Below, piece by piece: positions 10,960-26,440 of a stretch of DNA of 64,000 nucleotides. The notes under the pieces are model-generated. The model was not told where the DNA came from. It did not search any database and was given only the letters and a program-made list of their open reading frames with translations. The position numbers and the translations under genes were made by a program. Positions within the stretch are counted from its first letter, which is position 1, and every line of letters begins with the position of its first letter. The DNA comes from an uncultured Pelagibacteraceae bacterium (GTDB lineage Bacteria; Pseudomonadota; Alphaproteobacteria; Pelagibacterales; Pelagibacteraceae), in contig CACEIH010000002.1 in assembly GCA_902559565.1 (NCBI GenBank), forward strand, positions 1 to 64,000, in the 5' to 3' direction.

Positions 10960-11365
10960 AATTCTAGGAAAATATATTAAGGACATGTCGAGTGAAACTC
11001 CAAATGTCGAAACTTTTTTATTTGTTAAAGAAAATATATCTAAGTATCAGCTTAGCATAGATATTACTTCAAAGCCCCTTAAAGATAAAATTGTTGAAGT
11101 CATAACTACACTTAAATTTCAAGACAAGGACAATAATGAAAAGAAATCATATTTTGAGATAATTTTTGCTACAGTTATAAAAGTTACTGACGATATAAAG
11201 GATAAGAAAATAATAGAAAAAATAATACTTTGTGATGTTCAAAAAGAAATTTATCCTAACCTTGAAACTTCATTATTAAATCTTCTTCATAATTCTGGTT
11301 ACCCGGGAATTAAATTCGAAAAAAAAATTGATTTTGAAAAACTATATAGTCAAAAATTTAATTAA
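10940..11365 (+). CDS. secB: Protein-export chaperone SecB
   Basis: 'KYIKDMSSETPNVE' and 'YPNLETSLLNLLHNSGYPGIKFEKKIDFEKLY'; beside dnaQ as in other Alphaproteobacteria. Confidence 0.9.
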   Translation: MTTENFKILGKYIKDMSSETPNVETFLFVKENISKYQLSIDITSKPLKDKIVEVITTLKFQDKDNNEKKSYFEIIFATVIKVTDDIKDKKIIEKIILCDVQKEIYPNLETSLLNLLHNSGYPGIKFEKKIDFEKLYSQKFN

Positions 11366-12023
11366 AGAAATTTTTTTTAAGATTTGATTTTAAGTATGCA
11401 GAATGTTTAATTTTTTCTTGATCTGAGATTTTTACCACTTCTTTAAAATATAAAGTGTTCTTAATATTCAATTCATTAATTTCTTTATCGCGCGGTTGAA
11501 AATTTAAAGTAGGTTCTTTTTGATCTATAAGATTAATGTAAACTCTTGCCAACAAGTCACAATCAACTAGGGCCGTATGTTTTGATCTTTTAGAATTATC
11601 AATTCTATATCTTTTACACAACGCATCTAAACTTATAGAAGATCCTGGAAATTTATCTCTTGCTAAAATTAATGTATCTACGATATCATTTTTAATTTCA
11701 TCTTTTCCCAAAATCTTCAGTTCATTATTTAAATGCGATAAATCAAACTCAGCATTGTGAATAATTAATCTTTTATCTTTTATAAAATCTAAAAAATCAT
11801 CAACTATTTCTTTAAACTTTTTTTTATTTGACAAAAAATCATCAGTATAACCATGAACCTCTAACGCTTTTTCTGAAACTTTTCTTTCAGGATTTAGATA
11901 ACAATGAAATTTTTTAGCTGTAGGCACAAGATCGCTCAATTCTATGCAGCCGATTTCAACAATCCTATGACCGTCTCTTACAGAAAGTCCTGTTGTTTCA
12001 GTATCTAAAACTACTTCTTTCAT
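11358..12023 (-). CDS. dnaQ: DNA polymerase III epsilon subunit
   Basis: 'VVLDTETTGLSVRDGHRIVEIGCIEL', 'HNAEFDLSHLN', 'HTALVDCDLLARVY' exonuclease motifs. Confidence 0.96.
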   Translation of the reverse strand: MKEVVLDTETTGLSVRDGHRIVEIGCIELSDLVPTAKKFHCYLNPERKVSEKALEVHGYTDDFLSNKKKFKEIVDDFLDFIKDKRLIIHNAEFDLSHLNNELKILGKDEIKNDIVDTLILARDKFPGSSISLDALCKRYRIDNSKRSKHTALVDCDLLARVYINLIDQKEPTLNFQPRDKEINELNIKNTLYFKEVVKISDQEKIKHSAYLKSNLKKNFFN

Positions 12024-12593
12024 CTATAAAAGTTTTTTTAATATTGCTTTAATATCCTTTTTAACAGATTTATCTCTAAAATCATTTTTAATTATAAAAT
12101 TAGATCTTCTATATTTATAATCTAGTGGAAGTTGAAGTTTTTTAAATTTATTAAATAATTGTTGATTAAAATTTTTTCTTTTTTTTAATCTTTTATTTAT
12201 TTGTAATTTTTGAGATTTAACAAATATTATAATATCCTTTTTTCTATTCAATTTATTTTCTAATAGAAGAGGAATATCTAAAATTACTATTTTTTTTGAT
12301 TTATTTTTTCTTAAGAATAAGAACATTTTTTTTCTTATTTCAATATGTACAATTTTAACAATTTTTTTTAAATTTTTTTCATTTACCAATATAGCTTTAG
12401 AAATTTCTTTCTTATTTATGGGAAATGAAAATATGTACTTTGGCAAAACCTTTTTTAGCTTTAAAAAAACTTTTTTTTCTTTTTTATATAATTCTGCAAC
12501 CTCATGATCTGCATTAAATACTGGATAGCCAAATTTTTTTGCTAAAAAGCTCTTGCCCGACCCAATATCCCCTACTAGTCCTATTCTAATCAT
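12024..12593 (-). CDS. coaE: Dephospho-CoA kinase
   Basis: 'IGLVGDIGSGKSFLAKKFG.PVFNADHEVAELY', 'LDIPLLLEN'. Confidence 0.93.
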   Translation of the reverse strand: MIRIGLVGDIGSGKSFLAKKFGYPVFNADHEVAELYKKEKKVFLKLKKVLPKYIFSFPINKKEISKAILVNEKNLKKIVKIVHIEIRKKMFLFLRKNKSKKIVILDIPLLLENKLNRKKDIIIFVKSQKLQINKRLKKRKNFNQQLFNKFKKLQLPLDYKYRRSNFIIKNDFRDKSVKKDIKAILKKLL

Positions 12594-13381
12594 TGGTCTA
12601 ATAATTTTAATACATGATTATTAATTTCTGGCTCTATATTGTGCCATAACTTAAATGCAAAAAAAGCTTGGTAAATAAACATCATTTTACCATTAAATGC
12701 TTTATTCCCATATTGTTTACCAAATTTTAAAAAGTGGGTTTCTTTGGGGTTATAAATGACATCATAAAACAATTTATTTTCTACTTTGGGTAAATCTAAA
12801 TTAATTTTTTCTTGATTCTTAAGACCTATACTTGTTGCGTTAATAATCATATCAAACTCCGGAATTTCACCCCAGTTTACTACTTTTAATCTTTCAAATA
12901 ACTTTTTTAAATTTTCAGCCTTACTTTTAGTTCGATTGCAAATTGTTATGTTGGAAACTTTCATTTTTTTAAGTGAATAAATAATTGATGGAACGACTCC
13001 TCCTGCACCAATTATAAAAATATTCTTATTTTTTAAATCAATATTATTAAATTTAACACTGTATTCAAAACCTTCGATATCTGTGTTGTGACCTATTGCT
13101 TTATTATCTTTTAGCAGAATGGTATTTACAGATTGTGTTTTATGTGCTTCTTCACTTAAGTGATCTAAGTGAGAAATCACTTCTTGCTTAAAAGGAACAG
13201 TAATATTTAATCCGTTAATTTTTCCACTTTTTATTTCTAATATTAAATCTTTGATTTGATCATTTGTTATCCTCATTTTTTCATAATTAGCTTTTATCAT
13301 ATTAGTTTTTATCCAATAATTATGTAGATCTGGGGACAAAGAATGTTCGATTGGGTTGCCTATTACTAAATATTTTTTCAT
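12590..13381 (-). CDS. aroE: Shikimate dehydrogenase
   Basis: 'VIGNPIEHSLSPDLHNYWI', 'GLNITVPFKQEV', 'NTDIEGF', 'IIGAGGVVPSI'. Confidence 0.96.
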   Translation of the reverse strand: MKKYLVIGNPIEHSLSPDLHNYWIKTNMIKANYEKMRITNDQIKDLILEIKSGKINGLNITVPFKQEVISHLDHLSEEAHKTQSVNTILLKDNKAIGHNTDIEGFEYSVKFNNIDLKNKNIFIIGAGGVVPSIIYSLKKMKVSNITICNRTKSKAENLKKLFERLKVVNWGEIPEFDMIINATSIGLKNQEKINLDLPKVENKLFYDVIYNPKETHFLKFGKQYGNKAFNGKMMFIYQAFFAFKLWHNIEPEINNHVLKLLDQ

Positions 13382-13397
13382 ATAAACTTTTTCTATA

Positions 13398-13982
13398 TTA
13401 CTTGTAATTACTTAAATATTCTTTTAATTTTTTTATAGGCAGCCCCATTATTGTGTCTTCATCTCCGTCTATGTCTAAAAACAAATTTCTGCCCTCTCCT
13501 TCTATTTGATACACATTGTATGCATAAAGATTTTCGTCTGATACTTTTGACAAATATACACTAAGTTCTTCTTCTGTAAAATTTTTCATTTTTAATCTTG
13601 CTCTATCAGTATAGTTCCAAATCATTGATCCATTTTTGGAAATGCAAACTGAGCTGATTAAATTATGAGTCTTTCCATTTAGTTTTTTTAATATTTTTAA
13701 TGCTTCCTCTCTGTTAATTGGTTTTGAAATAAGCTCACCATTCAAATCAATTACACTATCTGCACCAAGAACTAACCGTTCAGTCTTTTTTTGACTTACT
13801 TTATTAGCTTTAAGTTCTGCTAAATTCTTTGATATTATCTCGGGAGAAGCTTTATCTTTTAATAAACTCTCTTTAACTATATCTTCATCAACATTTGATT
13901 GTTCAACCTGGGAAACAATATTATTTTTATCGAGAATTTCCTTTCTAACTTTACTCTTTGAAGCAAGTATTATTTCAACCAT
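13398..13982 (-). CDS. maf: Maf family nucleotide pyrophosphatase
   Basis: 'IILASKSKVRKEIL', 'VLGADSVIDLNGELISKP'. Confidence 0.93.
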   Translation of the reverse strand: MVEIILASKSKVRKEILDKNNIVSQVEQSNVDEDIVKESLLKDKASPEIISKNLAELKANKVSQKKTERLVLGADSVIDLNGELISKPINREEALKILKKLNGKTHNLISSVCISKNGSMIWNYTDRARLKMKNFTEEELSVYLSKVSDENLYAYNVYQIEGEGRNLFLDIDGDEDTIMGLPIKKLKEYLSNYK

Positions 13983-14799
13983 TCTGTTTATATATTTCGT
14001 ATATTTTTATTATTGATGCTGCAGTTTCTTCAACTGATTTCCGTGTCACATCAATTGTTGGCCATTTATATTTTTTAAAAGTTTTTTTTGCATCATCAAC
14101 TTCTTTTTTAATTTTTTCGATATCTGTATAAGATTTATTTTCAGTTTCTTTAAGGGAATTCATCCTGTTTTTTCTAATATCAACAAGTCTCTCAGGTTCC
14201 GTATTAAGACCAATTACACAGCTCATTTTTGGATTATCTTTTAAAGCCTTGGGGATTGAATTTTCATTAACTAGAGGGATATTAGATGTTTTAAATCCTT
14301 TGTTTGCTAAATATATTGATGTTGGTGTTTTGCTCGTTCTACTCACTCCTAATAGTATAATGTCTGATTTGTTAAGTTCTTTAAGTAAGTTTCCATCATC
14401 ATGATTCATTGTAAATTGAATTGCCGCTATTCTTTTATAATATTCATCATTTAATGCATACTGGCCGCTGGGTTGATGCGATGCTTTTTGATTTAAAAGT
14501 TTTGAAAAACTCAGAATTAGATCTCCCAAAACCCCAAAACAAGGGATTTTTTTATCTTCGCTAGTGTTTGCTAAATATTTTGCTAAATTAGTGTCAACTA
14601 TCGAATATAAAATTATCGAGTTATCATTTTTTTCAGCCTCAGATAAAATTTTAAAAATCTGATTCTCAGTTCTTGTGAATGAATAAGTGTGTATTTTATA
14701 ATTATTATTTTTAAATTGAGCTTTTATCGCAATAAAAATTCTTTCAAGCATTTCTCCTGTGGAGTCAGATATTAAATAAATTTGATATGTATTGCTCAT
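13975..14799 (-). CDS. Pyruvate, phosphate dikinase / PEP synthase regulatory protein (DUF299)
   Basis: 'IYLISDSTGEMLERI', 'ILLGVSRTSKTPTSIYLANKGFKTSNIPLV'. Confidence 0.93.
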   Translation of the reverse strand: MSNTYQIYLISDSTGEMLERIFIAIKAQFKNNNYKIHTYSFTRTENQIFKILSEAEKNDNSIILYSIVDTNLAKYLANTSEDKKIPCFGVLGDLILSFSKLLNQKASHQPSGQYALNDEYYKRIAAIQFTMNHDDGNLLKELNKSDIILLGVSRTSKTPTSIYLANKGFKTSNIPLVNENSIPKALKDNPKMSCVIGLNTEPERLVDIRKNRMNSLKETENKSYTDIEKIKKEVDDAKKTFKKYKWPTIDVTRKSVEETAASIIKIYEIYKQNG

Positions 14800-15080
14800 G
14801 TATAGAATGTTAATAACTATTTATTATTTAAATCATATTAAACAATTAATACATTTCTAAATTTACGTTGTAAAACAAGCGTTTTATCAACATTATCAAA
14901 CATAAGTATAAATTTTTACATTATTTAAAGGATTTGTTAATTAGCTTCAATTTTTCTTATATATTTTATGAATTTTCAGATCTAAATGTTAATAAATTGT
15001 TAAAAAAATGTTCATAAAAATTTATCACCATTATTCACAAGTTATACTAATAATAATACTTAATATATTTAATTATTAAT
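14800..15080. other. Putative chromosomal replication origin (oriC)
   Basis: 281-bp AT-rich gap between divergent ppsR and hemE; DnaA box TTATTCACA at 15031-15039, near-boxes TTATCAACA 14884-14892 and TTATCACCA 15022-15030, TTAA-N7-TTAA at 14989-15003; hemE-flanking position matches known alphaproteobacterial oriC. Confidence 0.75.
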
Positions 15081-16085
15081 ATGTCACCAATTGAAAAAGT
15101 AATTATTGATAAAAAAACAAATATTAATCCCATATGGATTATGAGGCAAGCTGGTAGATATTTACCTGAGTTTAGAGAAATAAGAAAAAACAATCCTGAT
15201 TTTATTAATTTATGTTTAAATGAGAATTTATCTGCAGAGATAACTTTACAACCTTTAAGAAGATTCGATTTAGACGCAGCTATAATATTTTCTGATATTT
15301 TAATGTTACCTTATGGACTAGGCCAAGAAGTGGTGTTTAAAAAAAATTTTGGACCTAAATTGAGTGAATTAAAACTAGATAAAATTGCTAAAATTGATGA
15401 AATAGATTTTGTAGAAAAAATACATCGAGTCTATAAAGCCATTGAAAAAGTTAGTTCAGATCAAATCCTAAAAAATAAAAATACAATTGGATTTGTTGGT
15501 GCTCCATGGACATTATTGGTTTATATGATTAATCAACACTCTCCTAAAAAAAAACTAAAAGAAAATTTTTTTAAAGACGAGTTTTTAATTAATAGAATTT
15601 TATTAATTATTGAAAAATTTTTAAAAGTTCATATAAAAAATCAAATTGATAATGGTGCAAATATAATACAAATATTTGATAGTTGGGCAGGCTTATTAGA
15701 AGAAAAAGATTTACCAAACTATGTTTACACACCCACGTTAAATCTTGTTAATTATGTTAAGTCTCTAAAAGTACCTGTTATATGTTTTCCTCGAGAAATA
15801 AAAAATTACAAGGAGTTTTGTGACATAGTTAAACCCGATGTTATTAGTATTGATTATAATATAAACCCAAAAGAAATTCTTAAATTTGTAAAAATACCAG
15901 TTCAAGGTGGTTTAGATCCAAAAATCTTATTAACAAACAAAGAAACATTAAAGAAAGAAACGACAAAGTATTTAGAAATTTTTAAAAATCATCCTTATAT
16001 CTTTAATTTAGGACACGGGATATTACCTGAAACTAACCCAGAAATAGTAGAATATTTAGTTCAAATAGTAAAAGATTATAAATGA
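15081..16085 (+). CDS. hemE: Uroporphyrinogen decarboxylase
   Basis: 'PIWIMRQAGRYLPEFREIR', 'LDAAIIFSDILMLP', 'IFDSWAG'. Confidence 0.97.
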   Translation: MSPIEKVIIDKKTNINPIWIMRQAGRYLPEFREIRKNNPDFINLCLNENLSAEITLQPLRRFDLDAAIIFSDILMLPYGLGQEVVFKKNFGPKLSELKLDKIAKIDEIDFVEKIHRVYKAIEKVSSDQILKNKNTIGFVGAPWTLLVYMINQHSPKKKLKENFFKDEFLINRILLIIEKFLKVHIKNQIDNGANIIQIFDSWAGLLEEKDLPNYVYTPTLNLVNYVKSLKVPVICFPREIKNYKEFCDIVKPDVISIDYNINPKEILKFVKIPVQGGLDPKILLTNKETLKKETTKYLEIFKNHPYIFNLGHGILPETNPEIVEYLVQIVKDYK

Positions 16086-17116
16086 AAAAAGCAGTAATTT
16101 TATTTAATTTAGGTGGTCCGGATAAATTAGAGAATGTAGAGCCTTTTTTATTCAATTTATTTAATGATCCAGCAATTTTAAATTTACCTGGTTTTTTTAG
16201 ATACCCGTTGGCAAAGCTAATTGCCAATAGAAGGACTCCAACTGCAAAAAAAATCTATCAAGAATTAGGAGGCTCTTCTCCAATTTTAAAACTTACGGAG
16301 GAACAAGCTGGTGCATTAGAACTTAAACTAAATAAAGATGACGAGCTATCTGAATATAAATGTTTTATAGTTATGAGATGTTGGCACCCTAGAGCAGAAA
16401 ACGTTGTTAAAGATGTAATTGATTATAATCCAAATGAAGTCATTTTAATGCCGCTATATCCACAATATTCAGCCGCAACATCAGGTTCATCGATTAAAGA
16501 GTGGAATAATATTTGTATAAAGAATAATTTAAAAGTTAAAACAAGCACAATTTGTTGTTATCCAACAGACGAAAATTTTATTGAAGCACATAAAGATGAA
16601 ATATTAAAAAAAATTGAAGGTTTAAAAAATTTTAAATTAATATTTTCTGCACACGGATTGCCCGAAAAAAACATTAAAAAAGGTGATCCATATCAATGGC
16701 AAGTAGAACAGTCGGTTGATCGAATTGTTAAGTCTTTGAATATTAAAAATCTAGACTGGATATTAAGTTATCAAAGCCGAGTTGGGCCTTTAAAATGGAT
16801 TGGCCCTTCTACTGAAGATATAATTGTAGAGAGTTCTAAATTAGGAAAACACATTGTTTTAGTTCCAGTCGCATTTGTTTCTGAACACTCTGAGACTTTG
16901 GTCGAATTAGATATAGAATATAAAGAGCTGGCAGATAAAAATGGTTGCAAGAATTATTCTAGAGTATCAGCGCTTGGAACAAACAAAAACTATATTAAAG
17001 CAATGTCTGATTTGATAATAAATAAACAAAATTACGATTTTAATGGAGAGCTTTATCCTCCAAAAGAGCATTGCCCAAGTAAATTTAAAAAATGTCCATG
17101 TTTAAGTTATGAATAG
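16082..17116 (+). CDS. hemH: Ferrochelatase
   Basis: 'AVILFNLGGPDKLENVEPFLFNLFNDP', 'LIFSAHGLPEKNIKKGDPY', 'YQSRVGPLKWIGPSTED'. Confidence 0.97.
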   Translation: MKKAVILFNLGGPDKLENVEPFLFNLFNDPAILNLPGFFRYPLAKLIANRRTPTAKKIYQELGGSSPILKLTEEQAGALELKLNKDDELSEYKCFIVMRCWHPRAENVVKDVIDYNPNEVILMPLYPQYSAATSGSSIKEWNNICIKNNLKVKTSTICCYPTDENFIEAHKDEILKKIEGLKNFKLIFSAHGLPEKNIKKGDPYQWQVEQSVDRIVKSLNIKNLDWILSYQSRVGPLKWIGPSTEDIIVESSKLGKHIVLVPVAFVSEHSETLVELDIEYKELADKNGCKNYSRVSALGTNKNYIKAMSDLIINKQNYDFNGELYPPKEHCPSKFKKCPCLSYE

Positions 17117-17540
17117 TTATTTATTATTTAAAAGTTTACATTTAATAGCAGTTGTGTCTTGGATGGCTGGTCTTTTATATCTTCCAAGAATTTTTGTTTA
17201 CCATTCAGAAAACAGTAATGAAATTATCACCACTGTATTTAAAACTATGGAAAAAAGATTGTTTTACTACATTATGACGCCCGCTATGGTTTTAAGCTGG
17301 CTTTTCGGATTGGCCTTGCTGCATGAGATAGGATTCAATGAACTGGCAAATTTATGGTTACAATTAAAGTTAATTTTGGTGATACTAATGACAATTTATC
17401 ACTTTTATCTTTCTCATTTACTTAACAAGTTTAAGCTTGATCAAAATGAAAAAACTTCAAAATTTTATCGTTTTATTAATGAAATCCCCACTTTATTACT
17501 TATTTTAATAATTTTTATTGTTGTATTTAAGCCAATCTAG
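17109..17540 (+). CDS. hemJ: Protoporphyrinogen oxidase HemJ-like membrane protein
   Basis: 'FKSLHLIAVVSWMAGLLYLPRIFVYH' conserved HemJ motif; follows hemE-hemH. Confidence 0.88.
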   Translation: MNSYLLFKSLHLIAVVSWMAGLLYLPRIFVYHSENSNEIITTVFKTMEKRLFYYIMTPAMVLSWLFGLALLHEIGFNELANLWLQLKLILVILMTIYHFYLSHLLNKFKLDQNEKTSKFYRFINEIPTLLLILIIFIVVFKPI

Positions 17541-17577
17541 GGTTGAATTTTATAATATAGTATATATATTAAACCTA

Positions 17578-17597
17578 ATTATTAAGTCCTTAATAAT
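17578..17597. repeat. 20-bp dyad ATTATTAAG-TC-CTTAATAAT upstream of rho
   Basis: 9-bp perfect inverted arms separated by 2 nt, ending 8 nt before the rho ATG (17606). Confidence 0.6.
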
Positions 17598-17605
17598 CTT
17601 TAATC

Positions 17606-18874
17606 ATGAACATTCAAGAACTAAAACTAAAATCATCCGAACAGCTTATAACTCAGGCTGAAGAGCTAGGAATAGAAAATGCCAGCACTTTAAGGAAGCA
17701 AGAAATTCTTTTTGCAATTTTAAAAAAAGTTGCTGAAAAAGAGGAAATTACAGGTGCCGGTGTTTTACAATTACTTCAAGATGGATTTGGGTTTTTAAGA
17801 GCAATGGAGTCAAATTATCTTCCAGGACCTGACGATATATATGTGAGTCCAAGTCAAATTAGAAAATTTGGCTTAAGAACAGGAGACACTGTAGAAGGTC
17901 CAGTTAGAGCACCAAAAGATGGGGAAAGGTATTTTGCTTTACTTCAAGTAAGTAAAATTAATTTTGAAGAACCAGAGAAATCAAGGCACAAAATAGCATT
18001 TGATAACTTAACTCCACTATATCCAGACAAACAACTTGTTATGGAGGTTGAGGCCACGAAACCAGACAAGAAACAAGATTTAACACCAAGATTAATTGAT
18101 TTAGTCAGCCCAATAGGAAAAGGACAAAGATCTATAATTATTTCTCCACCAAAAGCAGGTAAAACAATGATTTTACAAAGTATTGCTAATTCAATCGCTA
18201 AAAATTATCCTGAATGTTATTTAATTGTATTATTGATAGATGAGAGACCAGAGGAAGTAACAGACATGCAGAGAACTGTTAAGGGCGAAGTAATAAGCTC
18301 TACTTTTGATGAACCTGCTCAACGTCACGTCGCTGTTGCCGAAATGGTTATAGAAAAAGCCAAAAGATTAACCGAACATAAAAAAGATGTAGTTATTCTT
18401 TTAGATTCAATAACAAGATTAGGAAGAGCTTATAATGCAGTAATTCCAAGTTCAGGTAAAGTTTTAACAGGTGGTGTTGACGCTAACGCTTTACAACGTC
18501 CAAAAAGATTTTTTGGTGCAGCTAGAAATATTGAAGAAGGTGGGTCGTTAACTATAATTTCTACTGCATTAATTGATACTGGTAGCAGAATGGATGAGGT
18601 GATATTTGAAGAATTTAAAGGAACAGGAAATAGTGAAACGGTATTAGATAGAAAGATTGCCGACAAAAGAATTTATCCAGCTATGGATATCACTAAATCT
18701 GGAACAAGAAGAGAAGAATTACTTTTTGACAAAAATGATCTTCAAAAAATGAATGTTCTAAGAAGAATAATTGCTCCTATGGGAACAATGGATGCTATAG
18801 AGTTTATAAGTTCAAAACTAAAGGATACTAAAAATAATGCAGAATTTTTCAATTCTATGAATAAGCCTGCATAA
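17606..18874 (+). CDS. rho: Transcription termination factor Rho
   Basis: '[43 protein letters not shown]', 'PPKAGKT', '[13 protein letters not shown]'. Confidence 0.98.
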
Positions 18875-18880
18875 TAAATA

Positions 18881-20833
18881 ATGTCTTTGCTAAGCAGTGA
18901 TCAAAAAATTTTGATTGATAAAGCTTTGCAACTTCATAAAGAGGGTAAATTACAAGAAGCCATCAAATCTTATTCAGAATTATTAAATAAAGATAAAAAT
19001 AATTCTCAACTGTTATTTCTTTTAGGTACCGCTCTCATACAAATAAAAGATTTTAAAAAAGGCATTGATTATTTAAAAAAATGTTTGTCTTTAAAATCAA
19101 ATAATGCTTCTGCTTATAGTAATTTGGGCAATGCCTATAAGGAGCTTCTTCAATACGAAGAAGCATTAAAAAATTATGATGAAGCTATTAAGATAAACCC
19201 TAATTTTGCTGATGCGTTCAGCAACCGCGGAATTATCTTACAGGAAATGAAACGTTTTGAAGAAGCTCTTAAAAGTTACAATAAAGCGTTAGAGATTAAA
19301 CCCGATCATTTTTTTGCCCATAACAATAAAGGCATTACTTTAAAAGATTTAAATCGATATGGTGAAGCATTAGAAAGTTACGATAAAGCCATTGAAATCA
19401 ATCCTTCATTTATTGAACCATACAATAATAAAGGCAATATTTTTAAAGATATAAAGCAATATGATAAAGCATTAGAAAACTATCAAAAAATTATGAATTT
19501 AAATCCAGAATATAACTTCAATTTAGGAAAAATTTTACACACAAGTATGTTTTTGAATGAATGGAAAGATTTTGATATTCTTAATAAAAAAATAGATGAT
19601 GGTATTAAAAAAAGGTTGTGTGCTATAGAGCCTTTCTCATTTCTTGGAATATCAGATGATCCAGCTCTCGAAAAAACAGTTTCTGAAATTTTTATTAAAA
19701 ATAAGTTTCAAAATAATATTGAGATGAATAACTTAGCTCAAAATTATGATCATAAAAAACCAAGAATTGGATATTTGTCTGGAGATTTTTATGATCATCC
19801 AGTCCTTCATCTAATGATGGATATTTTTAAAAATCACGACAAGTCTAAATTTGATATTTATGGATTTTCATTTGGACCAAATAAAGATGATAAATGGAGA
19901 GCTGAGGTTAAAAACTATTTTTTTCATTTTGAAAATATCAACAATATATCAGATCAAGAAGTTGCAAATTTAATTAAAAAAAATGAAATTGATATAGTAA
20001 TTGATTTGTCAGGATTAACAGGAAATTCAAGAGTTGGTATTTTTTCTTATCAGGCGGCACCAATACAAATTAATTATTTGGGTTTTCCAGGTACAATGGG
20101 AGCAAAATTTATTAATTATGTTATAGCGGATGAGGTGGTTATACCAAAAGAGAATCAGAAGCATTTTTCTGAAAAAGTAATATATTTACCATATTGTTAT
20201 CAAGCCAATATGAGTCAAAGAAAAGTCTCATCAAAGAAATTTAAGAGAAAAGATTTTGGATTACCAAACGAGGGGTTTGTTTTTTGTAGCTTTAATAATA
20301 ATTATAAAATTACACCATATATTTTTGATAGCTGGATGAGGATTCTTAAAGAAGTGAAAAATAGTGTTTTATGGGTTTTAAAATCAAATGAAGTAGCGAT
20401 TCAAAACTTAAAGAAAGTTGCAAAGAAAAGGGGAGTTGATGAAAATAGAATAATATTTGCATCCTTCATGTCTAATGACGAACATTTAAAACGAATAACA
20501 TTAGCTGATTTATTTTTGGATTCATTCCCATATAATGCACACACAACCGCAAGTGATGCAGTGAGAATGGGGATACCAATAATTACTTTAACTGGAAAAT
20601 CGTTTTCATCTCGAGTTGGAGCGAGTATTTTAAAAACTATCAATATGGAAAAATTAATTACCTACAATAAAGATGATTATGAAGCATTAGCAATCGAGTT
20701 AGCAAATAAACCTGAAAAATTAATGGATTATAAAAACCAACTTAGAGAAGCTGTAGTAAAATCCCCTTTATTTGATAGTGTAACGCATACAAGAAATTTG
20801 GAAAATCTTTATTTGAAACTTTTAAAGAATTAA
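18881..20833 (+). CDS. TPR protein with SPINDLY/O-GlcNAc-transferase-like C-terminal domain
   Basis: Multiple TPRs ('EALKNYDEAIKINPNFADAFSNRGIIL'); C-terminal 'RIGYLSGDFYDHPVLHLM', 'APIQINYLGFPGTMGA', 'LADLFLDSFPYNAHTTASDAVRMGIPIITLTG'. Confidence 0.92.
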   Translation: MSLLSSDQKILIDKALQLHKEGKLQEAIKSYSELLNKDKNNSQLLFLLGTALIQIKDFKKGIDYLKKCLSLKSNNASAYSNLGNAYKELLQYEEALKNYDEAIKINPNFADAFSNRGIILQEMKRFEEALKSYNKALEIKPDHFFAHNNKGITLKDLNRYGEALESYDKAIEINPSFIEPYNNKGNIFKDIKQYDKALENYQKIMNLNPEYNFNLGKILHTSMFLNEWKDFDILNKKIDDGIKKRLCAIEPFSFLGISDDPALEKTVSEIFIKNKFQNNIEMNNLAQNYDHKKPRIGYLSGDFYDHPVLHLMMDIFKNHDKSKFDIYGFSFGPNKDDKWRAEVKNYFFHFENINNISDQEVANLIKKNEIDIVIDLSGLTGNSRVGIFSYQAAPIQINYLGFPGTMGAKFINYVIADEVVIPKENQKHFSEKVIYLPYCYQANMSQRKVSSKKFKRKDFGLPNEGFVFCSFNNNYKITPYIFDSWMRILKEVKNSVLWVLKSNEVAIQNLKKVAKKRGVDENRIIFASFMSNDEHLKRITLADLFLDSFPYNAHTTASDAVRMGIPIITLTGKSFSSRVGASILKTINMEKLITYNKDDYEALAIELANKPEKLMDYKNQLREAVVKSPLFDSVTHTRNLENLYLKLLKN

Positions 20834-20834
20834 G

Positions 20835-22166
20835 ATGACTATATATGCATTATCATCAGGGCCGGGTACTTCAGGTGTCGCAATTATAAGAATTTCAGGA
20901 AATGAAGCCTTAAATGTTATAAAACTGCTGACTGGTAAGGAAATTCCAACCCCTAGAGTGGCTACCCTTCGAAAAATAAACAATATCAACACTTCTGAAC
21001 TTATTGACGAAGGGATAATTATCTGTTTTCCAGGGCCCCAGAGCTACACTGGAGAGGATATGGCCGAAATTCATGTCCATGGAGGTAAGTCAGTAATTTT
21101 GGCAGTTCAAAATGAGATATCTAAAATTAAAAATTGTCGATTAGCTGAGCCAGGCGAGTTTACAAAGCTAGCTTTTCAAAATGGAAAGATAAATCTTTTA
21201 AAAGCAGAGAGTATTGCCGATTTAATCTCAGCAGAGACTGAAATACAAAGGTTACAAGCTGTTAAAATAATGAATGGAAAATCTTCTGATAAATTTAATG
21301 AACTTAGAATAAAATTGTTGAAACTTTTATCATTCGTTGAAGCTAAAATAGATTTTCCGGAGGAAGATTTACCGGAGGACAATTTAATAAAAATTAAACA
21401 AGATTCATCTGATGTATTAAATGAAATTAATAAAATTTTAAATGATCAAAAGGTCGGAGAAATAATTCGGGAGGGTTTTAAAATTGCAATCGTAGGACCT
21501 ACAAATGCTGGTAAATCAAGTTTATTAAATAATTTATCAAATAGAGAAGTCGCAATAGTTTCTGAGATTGCAGGCACTACGAGAGATGTTGTGGAAACAC
21601 ATTTAAATATAGATGGATACCCTGTTATTATTTCAGATACGGCAGGTATAAGAGATTCAAAAGATGAAATAGAAAAAAAAGGAATTAAGTTATCTCTTAA
21701 TAAAGCAGAAAATGCTGATCTGAAGCTTGTAGTAGTTGATGCTAAAAGTATTGATTTAAGGGGTTTTTTGAATGATTTCTTAAAAAATGATGCTATTTTA
21801 GTCTTAAATAAATCTGACCTTCTGAAGGAAAAATTAAATCCAGAAATTGAAAAATTAAACCATGTTTTAATTTCTTTAAAAGACAATTCTAATATTGATA
21901 AGTTGATTGAAAAAATAAAAGAGAACCTAAAAAATAAATTTATATCTGAGGAAGATATCCTAATTACTAGGGAAAGACATAGACAGCATTTGATTCAGTG
22001 TGTCGATCATTTAAACAATTTTGCTGATAAGAGTAATAAAAATGATTTTGATAAGGCTGCTGAGGATTTAAGGCTTGCTACAAGACAATTAGGCATGATT
22101 GTTGGAAAAGTTGATGTAGAGGAGATATTAGGTAGTATTTTCAACGATTTTTGTATTGGAAAATAA
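20835..22166 (+). CDS. mnmE: tRNA modification GTPase MnmE
   Basis: 'TIYALSSGPGTSGVAIIRISG', 'GPTNAGKSSLLN', 'GTTRDVVE', C-terminal 'CIGK'. Confidence 0.98.
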   Translation: MTIYALSSGPGTSGVAIIRISGNEALNVIKLLTGKEIPTPRVATLRKINNINTSELIDEGIIICFPGPQSYTGEDMAEIHVHGGKSVILAVQNEISKIKNCRLAEPGEFTKLAFQNGKINLLKAESIADLISAETEIQRLQAVKIMNGKSSDKFNELRIKLLKLLSFVEAKIDFPEEDLPEDNLIKIKQDSSDVLNEINKILNDQKVGEIIREGFKIAIVGPTNAGKSSLLNNLSNREVAIVSEIAGTTRDVVETHLNIDGYPVIISDTAGIRDSKDEIEKKGIKLSLNKAENADLKLVVVDAKSIDLRGFLNDFLKNDAILVLNKSDLLKEKLNPEIEKLNHVLISLKDNSNIDKLIEKIKENLKNKFISEEDILITRERHRQHLIQCVDHLNNFADKSNKNDFDKAAEDLRLATRQLGMIVGKVDVEEILGSIFNDFCIGK

Positions 22167-22282
22167 TTGATAATTTCCTTGATTTTTAGCCTTTTTTTTT
22201 AGATTTTCATTGATAAATAACGCTTATTTAAGCAACAAAACTCAAATCTTGTAAAAATCGTAATCGAATATAAATTTACATC

Positions 22283-24154
22283 ATGAAAAAAGATTTATCT
22301 TTTGATGTAGTAGTAATCGGTGGAGGTCATGCAGGCTGTGAAGCAGCAGCAGCATCCGCGCGGCTTGGAGTTAACACTGCTCTATTTACTCACAATAAAA
22401 ATACCATAGGAGAAATGTCATGTAATCCTGCCATTGGTGGTTTAGGAAAAGGTCATCTGGTGAGAGAAATTGATGCTTTAGATGGCGTTATGGGTGAGGT
22501 TGCTGATAAGTCTGGAATACAGTTTAGATTATTAAATAGAAGCAGAGGTCCAGCAGTCAGAGGCCCAAGAACTCAATCCGATAGATCATTATATCGCAAA
22601 TTTATGCAAGAAAAACTTGTAAACTACTGTAATTTAAGCATTTTTTCTGATCCTGTAATTAAGTTTATTTTTAACAATAATGAAATAAGTGGATTTTTAA
22701 CATTAAAAGGTAATAAAGTAAGTTGTAACAAGTTAATACTAACAACAGGCACATTTTTAAACGGCCTGATACATATTGGTGATGAAAGAACCCCTGCTGG
22801 TCGATTTAATGAAAAGCCAAGCACTGGTTTAAGTGAACAGTTAGAGAAATATAATTTTAAAATAGGCAGACTAAAAACAGGGACACCTCCAAGGTTAGAT
22901 TCAAGAACTATTAACTTTGAAAATTTAGAAAAACAATTTGCAGATGATGATCCTTATTTTTTTTCTTTTTTAACAAAAAAAAATCTAAACAAACAAGTAT
23001 CGTGTTCAATGACCTACACCAACGAAAAGGTTCACAGGATTATTAAAAAGAATTTATCTAAAAGTGCAATGTATTCTGGTAATATTCAAGGTGTTGGGCC
23101 AAGATATTGCCCTTCAATAGAAGATAAGATAGTAAAATTTGCGGATAAGACTAGACATCAGATATTTTTAGAGCCAGAGGGCCTTAATGATCATACAATT
23201 TATCCAAATGGTATATCAACATCTCTACCTGAGGTTGTGCAATATGAAATACTCAACAATATCAGTGGTTTAGATAATGTTAAAGTTATAAGGCCAGGAT
23301 ATGCTATAGAATACGACTATATTGATCCCCGAGAACTCTTTTTAACATTGGAGACTAAGAAAATAAAGAATCTGTATCTTGCAGGTCAAATAAATGGAAC
23401 TACAGGATACGAAGAGGCTGCAGCCCAAGGTCTTATAGCTGGAATTAATGCTGCTCTCTCACTTAAAAGAATGGAGCCATTTATTCTTGATAGATCTGAT
23501 GCATATATTGGGGTAATGATTGATGATTTAGTAACCAAGGGTGTTGCTGAGCCTTATAGAATGTTTACATCTAGAGCTGAATATAGATTAAGCCTTAGAT
23601 CAGATAATGCTGACTTAAGACTTACCCACAAAGGAATTAATATTGGTTTAATTTCTAATAATAGAAAAGTTATATTTGAGGATAAATTTGAAAAATTAAG
23701 CAAAATATCGTTGCAGATGTCTAATTTGAATATTTCTCCTTCTAAAGCTCAGAAATTTGGGGTTAAAATAGCTAAAGATGGTGTATTTCGATCAGCTGAA
23801 GAAATCTTAACTCAAAAATCAGTTAATATGAGTAAAATTAGAGATATATGGCCTGAAATTTTAGACCATGGTTCTGATATTGACGAGCAAATTGAAATAA
23901 ATTCACATTACAGAGGTTATTTGAAAAAACAAAAGGCTGATATCTTAGCCTTTAAAAGGGATGAAAATTTAATAATCCCTGATAATATTGATTATGATCA
24001 ATTTTCAGGCCTTTCTAATGAAGTTAAGGCAAAATTCAAGGAAATCAGGCCTAAAACTATGGGTCAGGCACTAAGAATTGATGGAATTACTCCAGCAGCT
24101 GTATATATTTTGTTGTCACACGTTAAAAGAAAGTCTATTAAGCATATAGCTTAA
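22283..24154 (+). CDS. mnmG: tRNA uridine-5-carboxymethylaminomethyl modification enzyme MnmG
   Basis: '[22 protein letters not shown]', '[21 protein letters not shown]', '[18 protein letters not shown]'. Confidence 0.98.
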
Positions 24155-24801
24155 TGGATAATGTAATTTTAAATTCTTACTCTAAAATTCCAAGCTTAAA
24201 TGTTTCACGTGAAACTTGTAATGAGCTGGAAAACTTAATTTCAATGATACAGGAAAAAAATGAAGAAATTAACATTATCAGTAAAAAAAACTCAGAAAAA
24301 AATGTAATAAGAGAAAGACATATATTTGATTCAGCTCAAATCATTGATATTGTTGATTTAAATAGCAATACAACCTGTGATTTAGGTACTGGTGGTGGTA
24401 TGCCAGGATTAATTGTAGCTATAGTGATGAAAAATCTAAAAAATAAGATGAAAATAAATTTATATGAAAAAAGTTATCACAAATGTGTTTTTTTAAAAGA
24501 AGTCTCACAAAAATTAAAATTGAACACAGAAGTAATTCAAAAAGATATATTTACAGTTAAAAATATAGAAACAGGAACAATTATGTCCAGAGCTTTTAAA
24601 CCGCTGCCAGTCATTCTTGATTTAGTAAATCAAAATTTTAAGAAATTTAAAAATTTAATTCTATTTATGGGCAGTTCTGGAAGAAAAATTTTAAACGATA
24701 CACTCACTGATTGGGATTTAGATTATATAGAAAAAAAAAGCATAACTAACGATAACTCATTTATATTAAATATAAAAAAAATTGAAAAAAAAAATTCATG
24801 A
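24154..24801 (+). CDS. rsmG: 16S rRNA (guanine-N7) methyltransferase RsmG
   Basis: 'LNVSRETCNELENLISMIQEKNEEINIIS', 'CDLGTGGGMPGLIVAIV'. Confidence 0.96.
   Translation: MDNVILNSYSKIPSLNVSRETCNELENLISMIQEKNEEINIISKKNSEKNVIRERHIFDSAQIIDIVDLNSNTTCDLGTGGGMPGLIVAIVMKNLKNKMKINLYEKSYHKCVFLKEVSQKLKLNTEVIQKDIFTVKNIETGTIMSRAFKPLPVILDLVNQNFKKFKNLILFMGSSGRKILNDTLTDWDLDYIEKKSITNDNSFILNIKKIEKKNS
24201..24216. promoter_or_regulatory. parS centromere site (ParB binding) inside rsmG
   Basis: TGTTTCACGTGAAACT: 15/16 match to bacterial parS TGTTTCACGTGAAACA, core palindrome perfect; parA-parB lie immediately downstream. Confidence 0.93.
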
Positions 24802-25592
24802 AAATAATTTCTATAATAAATCAAAAGGGTGGGGTTGGCAAAACTACAACAGTGATTAATCTTGCTTCAGCATTGTCACAGCAAGGTAAAAAAATTTTGG
24901 TTATTGATCTCGATCCTCAGGGAAATGCTACAACTGGATTAGGATTATCAAACACCGAAAGATCTGATCAAACAATATATGGAATTCTTAATGGAACAGT
25001 GTCTATTTCTAATGTAATTAAGAAAACTAATTTTGAAAATCTGGACTTGATATCATCTAATGTTGATCTTTCCGGACTAGAGGTTGAAACTGCCGGGGAT
25101 AATGATAGAGCATTTATTTTAAAAGCTAAATTAACCGCATATTTAAATGATTCTAGAGAGTCTTATGATTATATTTTGATAGATTGCCCTCCTTCACTAA
25201 GTTTATTAACTGTAATGGCTTTAGTATCTTCAAATTCTCTTTTAGTACCACTTCAAACTGAATTTTTTGCTTTAGAGGGTTTAACTCAATTAATGAAAAC
25301 TATAGATCGAATAAAAGTTAATTTAAATCCCAAGTTAGAAATTCAAGGAATACTTTTAACAATGTATGATAGAAGAAACAAACTATCTTCTCAAGTTGAG
25401 CAAGAAGCTAGAGATTATTTTAAGGATAAAGTTTATCAAACAGTTATACCTCGAAATGTAAGATTGTCAGAAGCACCATCTCATGGTGTACCTGTTTTGA
25501 TATATGACAAGAGTTGTCCTGGGAGTAAATCCTATTACAGTTTTACTGATGAATTTATTCTTCAAGAAAATAAAATTGGGAGTGCAGCTTAA
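24798..25592 (+). CDS. parA: Chromosome partitioning ATPase ParA
   Basis: 'IISIINQKGGVGKTTTVINLASAL', 'VIDLDPQGNATTGLG'. Confidence 0.98.
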   Translation: MKIISIINQKGGVGKTTTVINLASALSQQGKKILVIDLDPQGNATTGLGLSNTERSDQTIYGILNGTVSISNVIKKTNFENLDLISSNVDLSGLEVETAGDNDRAFILKAKLTAYLNDSRESYDYILIDCPPSLSLLTVMALVSSNSLLVPLQTEFFALEGLTQLMKTIDRIKVNLNPKLEIQGILLTMYDRRNKLSSQVEQEARDYFKDKVYQTVIPRNVRLSEAPSHGVPVLIYDKSCPGSKSYYSFTDEFILQENKIGSAA

Positions 25593-26440
25593 TGAGTTCA
25601 AAAATTAAAAAGGGGTTAGGTAGAGGATTATCATCTTTAATTGGAGAAACCAAAGTTGAGTCTAAAACGAATAAATTACCATTAAGTGAAATCGTTCCTA
25701 ATAAATTTCAACCTCGTAAAAATTTCGATCAAGAAAATTTAGATGATTTAACAAATTCAATTAAAGAACGAGGGGTAATTCAGCCTATCATAGTTAGAAA
25801 ATCAAATTCTGATAATTCCAAGTTTGAAATTATTGCAGGTGAGAGAAGATGGCTTGCTGCGCGTGGAGCAGGGTTACACGATATTCCTGTAGTTATAACC
25901 GATGCAGATGACTTAAAATCCTTAGAGTTTGCTATTGTTGAGAACGTTCAACGGCATGATTTGAACCCCCTAGAAGAGGCTCAGGGTTACAAACGTTTGA
26001 TAGATGAATTTTCTTACGATCAGGAAAAAGTCTCTAAATTTATTGGTAAAAGCAGAAGTTATATAACAAATTCTTTGCGACTATTAAATTTGCCACCAGA
26101 GGTTTTAAAGTTTGTTGAAGAAAAAAAAATAAGTGCTGGTCACGCGAAAATCCTTGTTGGTCTAGAAAATGCACTATTTATAACAAATAAAATTATCGAA
26201 AAAAAACTATCTGTTAGACAAGCTGAGAATTTTGTTAAAATCTTTAAGAAAGGACCAAAGACTGGATCTAAAAGAGTTTATGATGCTAACATTAAAAATT
26301 TAGAGGAGACTATTTCAGATAAAATTGGATTAAATGTAAAAATCAAAAACAACAAAAAAAATAAAGGTACAATCACTTTCTCATATCACGATGTTGATCA
26401 GCTTAATAAGATAATAGATATAATTAAATCTTATTATTAA
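25592..26440 (+). CDS. parB: Chromosome partitioning protein ParB
   Basis: 'KKGLGRGLSSLIGE', 'NKFQPRKNFD', 'IIAGERRWLAARGAGL', 'ENVQRHDLNPLEEAQGYKRL'. Confidence 0.98.
   Translation: MSSKIKKGLGRGLSSLIGETKVESKTNKLPLSEIVPNKFQPRKNFDQENLDDLTNSIKERGVIQPIIVRKSNSDNSKFEIIAGERRWLAARGAGLHDIPVVITDADDLKSLEFAIVENVQRHDLNPLEEAQGYKRLIDEFSYDQEKVSKFIGKSRSYITNSLRLLNLPPEVLKFVEEKKISAGHAKILVGLENALFITNKIIEKKLSVRQAENFVKIFKKGPKTGSKRVYDANIKNLEETISDKIGLNVKIKNNKKNKGTITFSYHDVDQLNKIIDIIKSYY

Follow-up and report, generated by a model that had tools for sequence, protein, structure and literature searches.

Does the gap between ppsR and hemE hold the replication origin of a SAR11 chromosome? The question arises from the window analyzed here, the first 64 kb of contig C2 (130,939 bp) of an uncultured Pelagibacteraceae bacterium, whose assembly amounts to 767 kb in 60 contigs and is 59% complete. 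The closest named relatives are single-cell genomes and MAGs of Pelagibacteraceae, which places the organism in SAR11. The initial annotation had placed oriC in the 281-bp intergenic gap at 14800-15080, between the divergent ppsR (minus strand) and hemE (plus strand). This proposal gains support from a GC-skew minimum, conserved DnaA boxes, a gap-specific peak in DnaA boxes and a single nearby parS, and on these sequence-based grounds we consider the gap very probably to be the chromosomal oriC of this Pelagibacteraceae (SAR11) genome. Among the papers listed by our literature search, none described an oriC of SAR11, although cultured strains may well have a prediction in DoriC.

The gap has a GC content of 15.7%, against 28% for the contig (84% versus 72% AT), and only 0.75% of 281-bp windows across the 64 kb are as AT-rich. 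No other gap in the window between ORFs of 100 aa or more is as long, in agreement with its original description as a long AT-rich gap. Gene directions were likewise confirmed on both sides: a minus-strand run leads leftward from ppsR to dnaQ (ppsR-maf-aroE-coaE-dnaQ, 11358-14799), and a plus-strand run rightward from hemE to parB (hemE-hemH-hemJ-rho-TPR/GT41-mnmE-mnmG-rsmG-parA-parB, 15081-26440). Between rho and mnmE, this origin-proximal cluster encodes a TPR protein of 650 aa whose glycosyltransferase family 41 domain is O-GlcNAc-transferase-like (18881-20833). Rfam and tRNA scans of the window gave no matches.

The left boundary gene matches PF03618 (Kinase-PPPase), which we take to be the family formerly named DUF299, COG1806. 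Because ppsR belongs to COG1806/DUF299, the gene pair is the one that bounds the mapped Caulobacter origin: independent mapping methods placed Cori between hemE and CC_0001, a COG1806 gene, and the same arrangement, probably ancestral, is present in Rickettsia (PMC1914354). The gap shares with the hemE/COG1806-type origins both its place between hemE and COG1806 (ppsR) and an AT content above that of its genome; as it matches the Caulobacter origin position, we regard it as a new member of an established type of site. The divergent ppsR/hemE pair, with a gap of 261-284 bp, was found in 145 of the 145 genus loci carrying both genes, and the only other genus locus, where hemE had no match, is a short contig. 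Whole-gap identity between this genome and a complete relative (G082) is mid-range among intergenic regions, the conservation being carried by the boxes; overall identity is only average and was therefore left out of the evidence for oriC.

Table 1. Features of the predicted origin region, in window coordinates
Feature	Position	Strand	Basis
Probable oriC, intergenic ppsR/hemE	14800..15080		Conserved gap length; top DnaA-box cluster
ppsR (COG1806/DUF299, PF03618), left boundary	13975..14799	-	NF003742 E=3e-90; PF03618 E=2e-88
hemE, right boundary	15081..16085	+	TIGR01464 E=1e-95, above cut-off
DnaA box TTATTAACA (+ strand reads TGTTAATAA)	14808..14816	-	Exact TTATNMACA; TGTTNATAA aligned in 43/117 relatives
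DnaA box TTATCAACA (genus consensus TTATTAACA)	14884..14892	+	Exact TTATNMACA; mean column identity 0.947; TTATNAACA in 98/117
DnaA box TTATTAACA (+ strand reads TGTTAATAA)	14987..14995	-	Exact TTATNMACA; TGTTNATAA in 69/117
Weak DnaA-type box TGTTAAAAA, usually TGTTWATAA in relatives	14998..15006	-	NGTTNATAA aligned in 77/117
DnaA box TTATGAACA (+ strand reads TGTTCATAA)	15009..15017	-	Exact TTATNMACA
Weak tandem DnaA-type box TTATCACCA, abuts main box	15022..15030	+	TNATNAYCA in 48/117; among top conserved 9-mers by information
Main DnaA box TTATTCACA, beside putative unwinding side	15031..15039	+	Exact TTATNMACA; top information of DnaA-box registers in gap; exact in 64/117
DnaA-trio-like tract ATA CTA ATA ATA ATA (opposite 3'-TAT GAT TAT TAT TAT-5')	15044..15058	+	Period-3 conservation
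Putative duplex-unwinding element, 7% GC, hemE side	15040..15080		Composition; role suggested by position beside box and trios
Perfect parS core GTTTCACGTGAAAC inside rsmG, just ahead of parA/parB	24202..24215		9.1 kb from gap
parA + parB, origin-proximal segregation genes	24798..26440	+

Exact matches to TTATNMACA occur at five sites in the gap (Table 1), with 0.05 expected per gap length. Dinucleotide-shuffled gaps contained a mean of 0.18 sites and none of 2000 shuffles reached five, and the five-site cluster is unique in the 299 kb of the organism's own genome that was searched. Six box definitions were applied to G082 (1,437,930 bp): under three of them, one being TTATNCACA with one mismatch, no other locus has as strong a box cluster as the homologous gap, and under the remaining three other loci match or beat it. 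In a second complete relative (G012, of which 60% was sampled), the gap is unique for exact TTATNMACA only, and the looser TTATNCACA pattern with one mismatch is matched or beaten at other loci. On this footing the DnaA-box cluster surpasses the rest of the genome, both over the 299 kb of own sequence and across the whole of G082. The organism encodes a complete DnaA whose C-terminal DNA-binding domain is intact and which has the RDHTT motif.

The 117 distinct gaps of relatives carry a mean of 3.23 sites (0.21 expected). Conservation was ranked across these relatives for all 9-mers of the gap, with no motif preselected; by information, TTATTCACA at 15031 and its adjacent shifts come first, and TTATCAACA at 14884 has the highest mean column identity among the top-ranked 9-mers. 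Among the gap's DnaA-box 9-mers, these two are the best conserved in the alignment of relatives, and both had been named in the initial annotation. Every motif position it had given was correct on re-examination of the sequence, and the boxes it listed are all present; those at 14808, 14987 and 15009 had been missed. The box at 15009 keeps its TGTT part in 85 of the 117 relatives and the full TGTTNATAA in only 19. Several boxes fall in 11-bp steps between 14987 and 15031, among them the series 14987, 14998 (weak) and 15009. Two further conserved blocks were seen: AAGCTTCAATTT at 14941-14952 is not a DnaA box and may serve a different origin-binding protein, and TTGTAAAAC at 14868-14876 lies ~8 bp ahead of the 14884 box, with TGTAAAA in 104 of the 117 relatives.

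A TTAA-N7-TTAA motif, also recorded in the initial annotation, is indeed present at 14989-15003 and would be the CtrA site if the gap were a CtrA-controlled origin as in Caulobacter. The motif is kept in only 7 of the 117 relatives and occurs across them at chance frequency (0.34 observed versus 0.29 expected per gap). Searches of ten SAR11 genomes for a CtrA ortholog, with a Caulobacter CtrA as the query, gave best matches of at most about 33% identity, against 70-82% for the same query in four other, CtrA-bearing alphaproteobacteria; a ctrA ortholog has also been published as absent from Pelagibacter (PMC2877005). The identification of this motif as a CtrA site was therefore rejected, and CtrA control of the gap is extremely improbable. 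The TTAA pair is a by-product of the overlapping DnaA-type boxes at 14987, 14998 and 15009, 11 bp apart. CtrA sites, which are typical of Caulobacter and not universal in the class, are not conserved in the gap, and the origin of a Wolbachia strain is reported to have none (PMC1914354). Relative to the initial annotation, TTAA-N7-TTAA is not supported as a CtrA-type element, and the 11-bp-spaced boxes and a trio-type module, described below, are added.

As the organism's own genome is incomplete, GC skew was examined in the two relatives. The cumulative curve of G082 has its minimum at 939,975 and its maximum at 159,092, nearly opposite, and the gap (910,394-910,660) lies 2.0% of the genome from the minimum, with a local value of -9,893 versus -9,998; the arms from the gap to the skew maximum measure about 686 and 751 kb. 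The gene-orientation curve of G082 has its minimum at 882,847 and its maximum at 161,124. In G012, the lowest skew stretch (1,239,500-1,279,500) includes the gap (1,261,949-1,262,209), with the maximum near 656,500. The whole-genome check called for in the initial annotation thus placed the skew minimum of both relatives at the homologous gap or no more than 2% away from it. At fourfold-degenerate sites in G082 there is little skew, with no signal at the gap, so that the whole-genome skew mostly reflects gene orientation. Contig C2 alone shows two GC-skew minima, the lower at 47.9 kb and not at the gap.

A perfect parS core, with 0.003 expected per genome, occurs once in each sequence searched: at 24202 on this contig, at 917,858 in G082 and at 1,254,720 in the searched part of G012. 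Its distance to the gap is about 7.2 kb in G082 and G012 and 9.1 kb here. A search for dif by the E. coli consensus gave no credible match. The dnaA gene lies ~64 kb from the predicted origin (C2 about 79,084-80,532); in Caulobacter, dnaA is close to the origin. Since oriC adjoins dnaA in many bacteria, and the G082 skew minimum does not fall exactly at the gap, the origin might be sought elsewhere in the region, for example beside dnaA, 64 kb to the right on the contig, or at the exact skew minimum, 29 kb off in G082. However, the G082 curve is flat from 880 to 945 kb with almost equal minima, the G012 trough includes the gap, and neither the surroundings of dnaA nor any other part of the own sequence searched (299 kb) or of G082 holds a comparable box cluster; we regard such a displaced origin as very unlikely.

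Next to the main box, the gap carries a second conserved signal. At each third base from 15046, over six triplets, A is present in 99, 97, 98, 99, 91 and 90% of the 117 relatives; the base before that A is T at 92-94% in three triplets, and at triplets 3, 5 and 6 only about 40-60% of relatives have T in this middle position. The three-base periodicity (permutation P 0.0004) is the strongest such signal in the entire gap. The opposite strand reads 3'-NAT-5', the pattern of DnaA-trios (consensus 3'-GAT-5'; PMC8287927), with the first triplet 4 bp from TTATTCACA. The basal unwinding system (BUS) calls for three or more 3'-NAN-5' triplets no farther than 16 bp from a DnaA box; here five consecutive ones lie at 15044-15058, and 85 of the 117 relatives have at least three near the box; both counts are weak tests in AT-rich DNA, and the cross-species period is the stronger support for trios. 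We propose that TTATTCACA and the periodic tract form an unwinding module facing hemE, which the initial annotation did not include.

Within the same order, the sister family has a different neighbor of hemE: in place of ppsR, which was not found there, stands a minus-strand gene of ~195-200 aa, shown to be Maf for one member (L211, PF02545). A box plus a CTA-type repeat remains just before hemE in many of these loci (L199-L204, L207, L210-L215), where the DNA just ahead of hemE reads ...ACAGG...CTACTACTA...TATATATA in many of the members examined and has ACAAC-type variants in others. Because CTACTACTA occupies the same place before hemE in the sister family, a trio reading of the tract is likelier than a chance AT pattern.

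Alternatively, the gap might do no more than carry the divergent promoters of ppsR and hemE; promoter elements would then explain its AT-richness and conserved blocks, and the origin would lie elsewhere. The gene pair is divergent, whole-gap identity is unexceptional, and the conserved TATACT at 15043-15048 resembles, and could also be, the -10 element of hemE, overlapping the tract. Promoters alone, however, do not account for the genome-top DnaA-box cluster, the skew minimum, the nearby single parS or the six-triplet periodic tract, nor for a box and CTA-type tract being kept before hemE in the sister family, where the neighbor is maf rather than ppsR. We therefore give a promoter-only function very little credence and retain the assignment of the gap as oriC.

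Compared with Caulobacter crescentus Cori (hemE / CC_0001; PMC1914354), the SAR11 gap has in common the boundary genes, an AT-rich gap and a DnaA-box cluster, but it is shorter (about 281 bp versus >400 bp), it belongs to organisms without a CtrA ortholog or conserved CtrA sites, and its boxes are mostly of the TTATTAACA type. The predicted origin of Rickettsia prowazekii has the same gene pair, also in an AT-rich genome (PMC1914354), whereas its gap is longer (>400 bp) and CtrA and IHF sites were among the criteria used there. With the BUS of B. subtilis (DnaA-boxes 6/7 plus DnaA-trios; PMC8287927), the SAR11 module shares a box, a weaker tandem box, a trinucleotide tract at an allowed distance and a GAT-type triplet close to the box; in the Pelagibacter genus, by contrast, the tract is degenerate (NNA, NTA at most positions), and canonical CTA repeats are found in the sister family.

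From the computed position, box cluster, conservation, periodic tract, skew and parS, we infer how replication would start, from DnaA binding and the side on which the DNA opens to the loading of helicase and segregation. DnaA would bind five or more TTATNMACA-type boxes, and a DnaA filament would grow from the main box (15031-15039) towards hemE, following the DnaA-trio strand. The filament would open the very AT-rich 15040-15080 segment, where the helicase would be loaded, and two forks would exit, one via ppsR and one via hemE; ParB on the single nearby parS would then segregate the new origins.

Much more tentatively, and with some doubt on our part, SAR11 bacteria may have a minimal, CtrA-free origin of <300 bp, in which the boxes have drifted to the lower-consensus TTATTAACA and the DnaA-trios to degenerate NNA. 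If that were so, control of initiation would rest almost wholly on DnaA, matching the streamlined SAR11 cell cycle. The gap offers a defined DNA for testing the start of replication in a bacterium without CtrA. SAR11 is among the most abundant marine bacterial groups, and a conserved origin resolved to the base would allow metagenomic peak-to-trough growth estimates to be anchored correctly.
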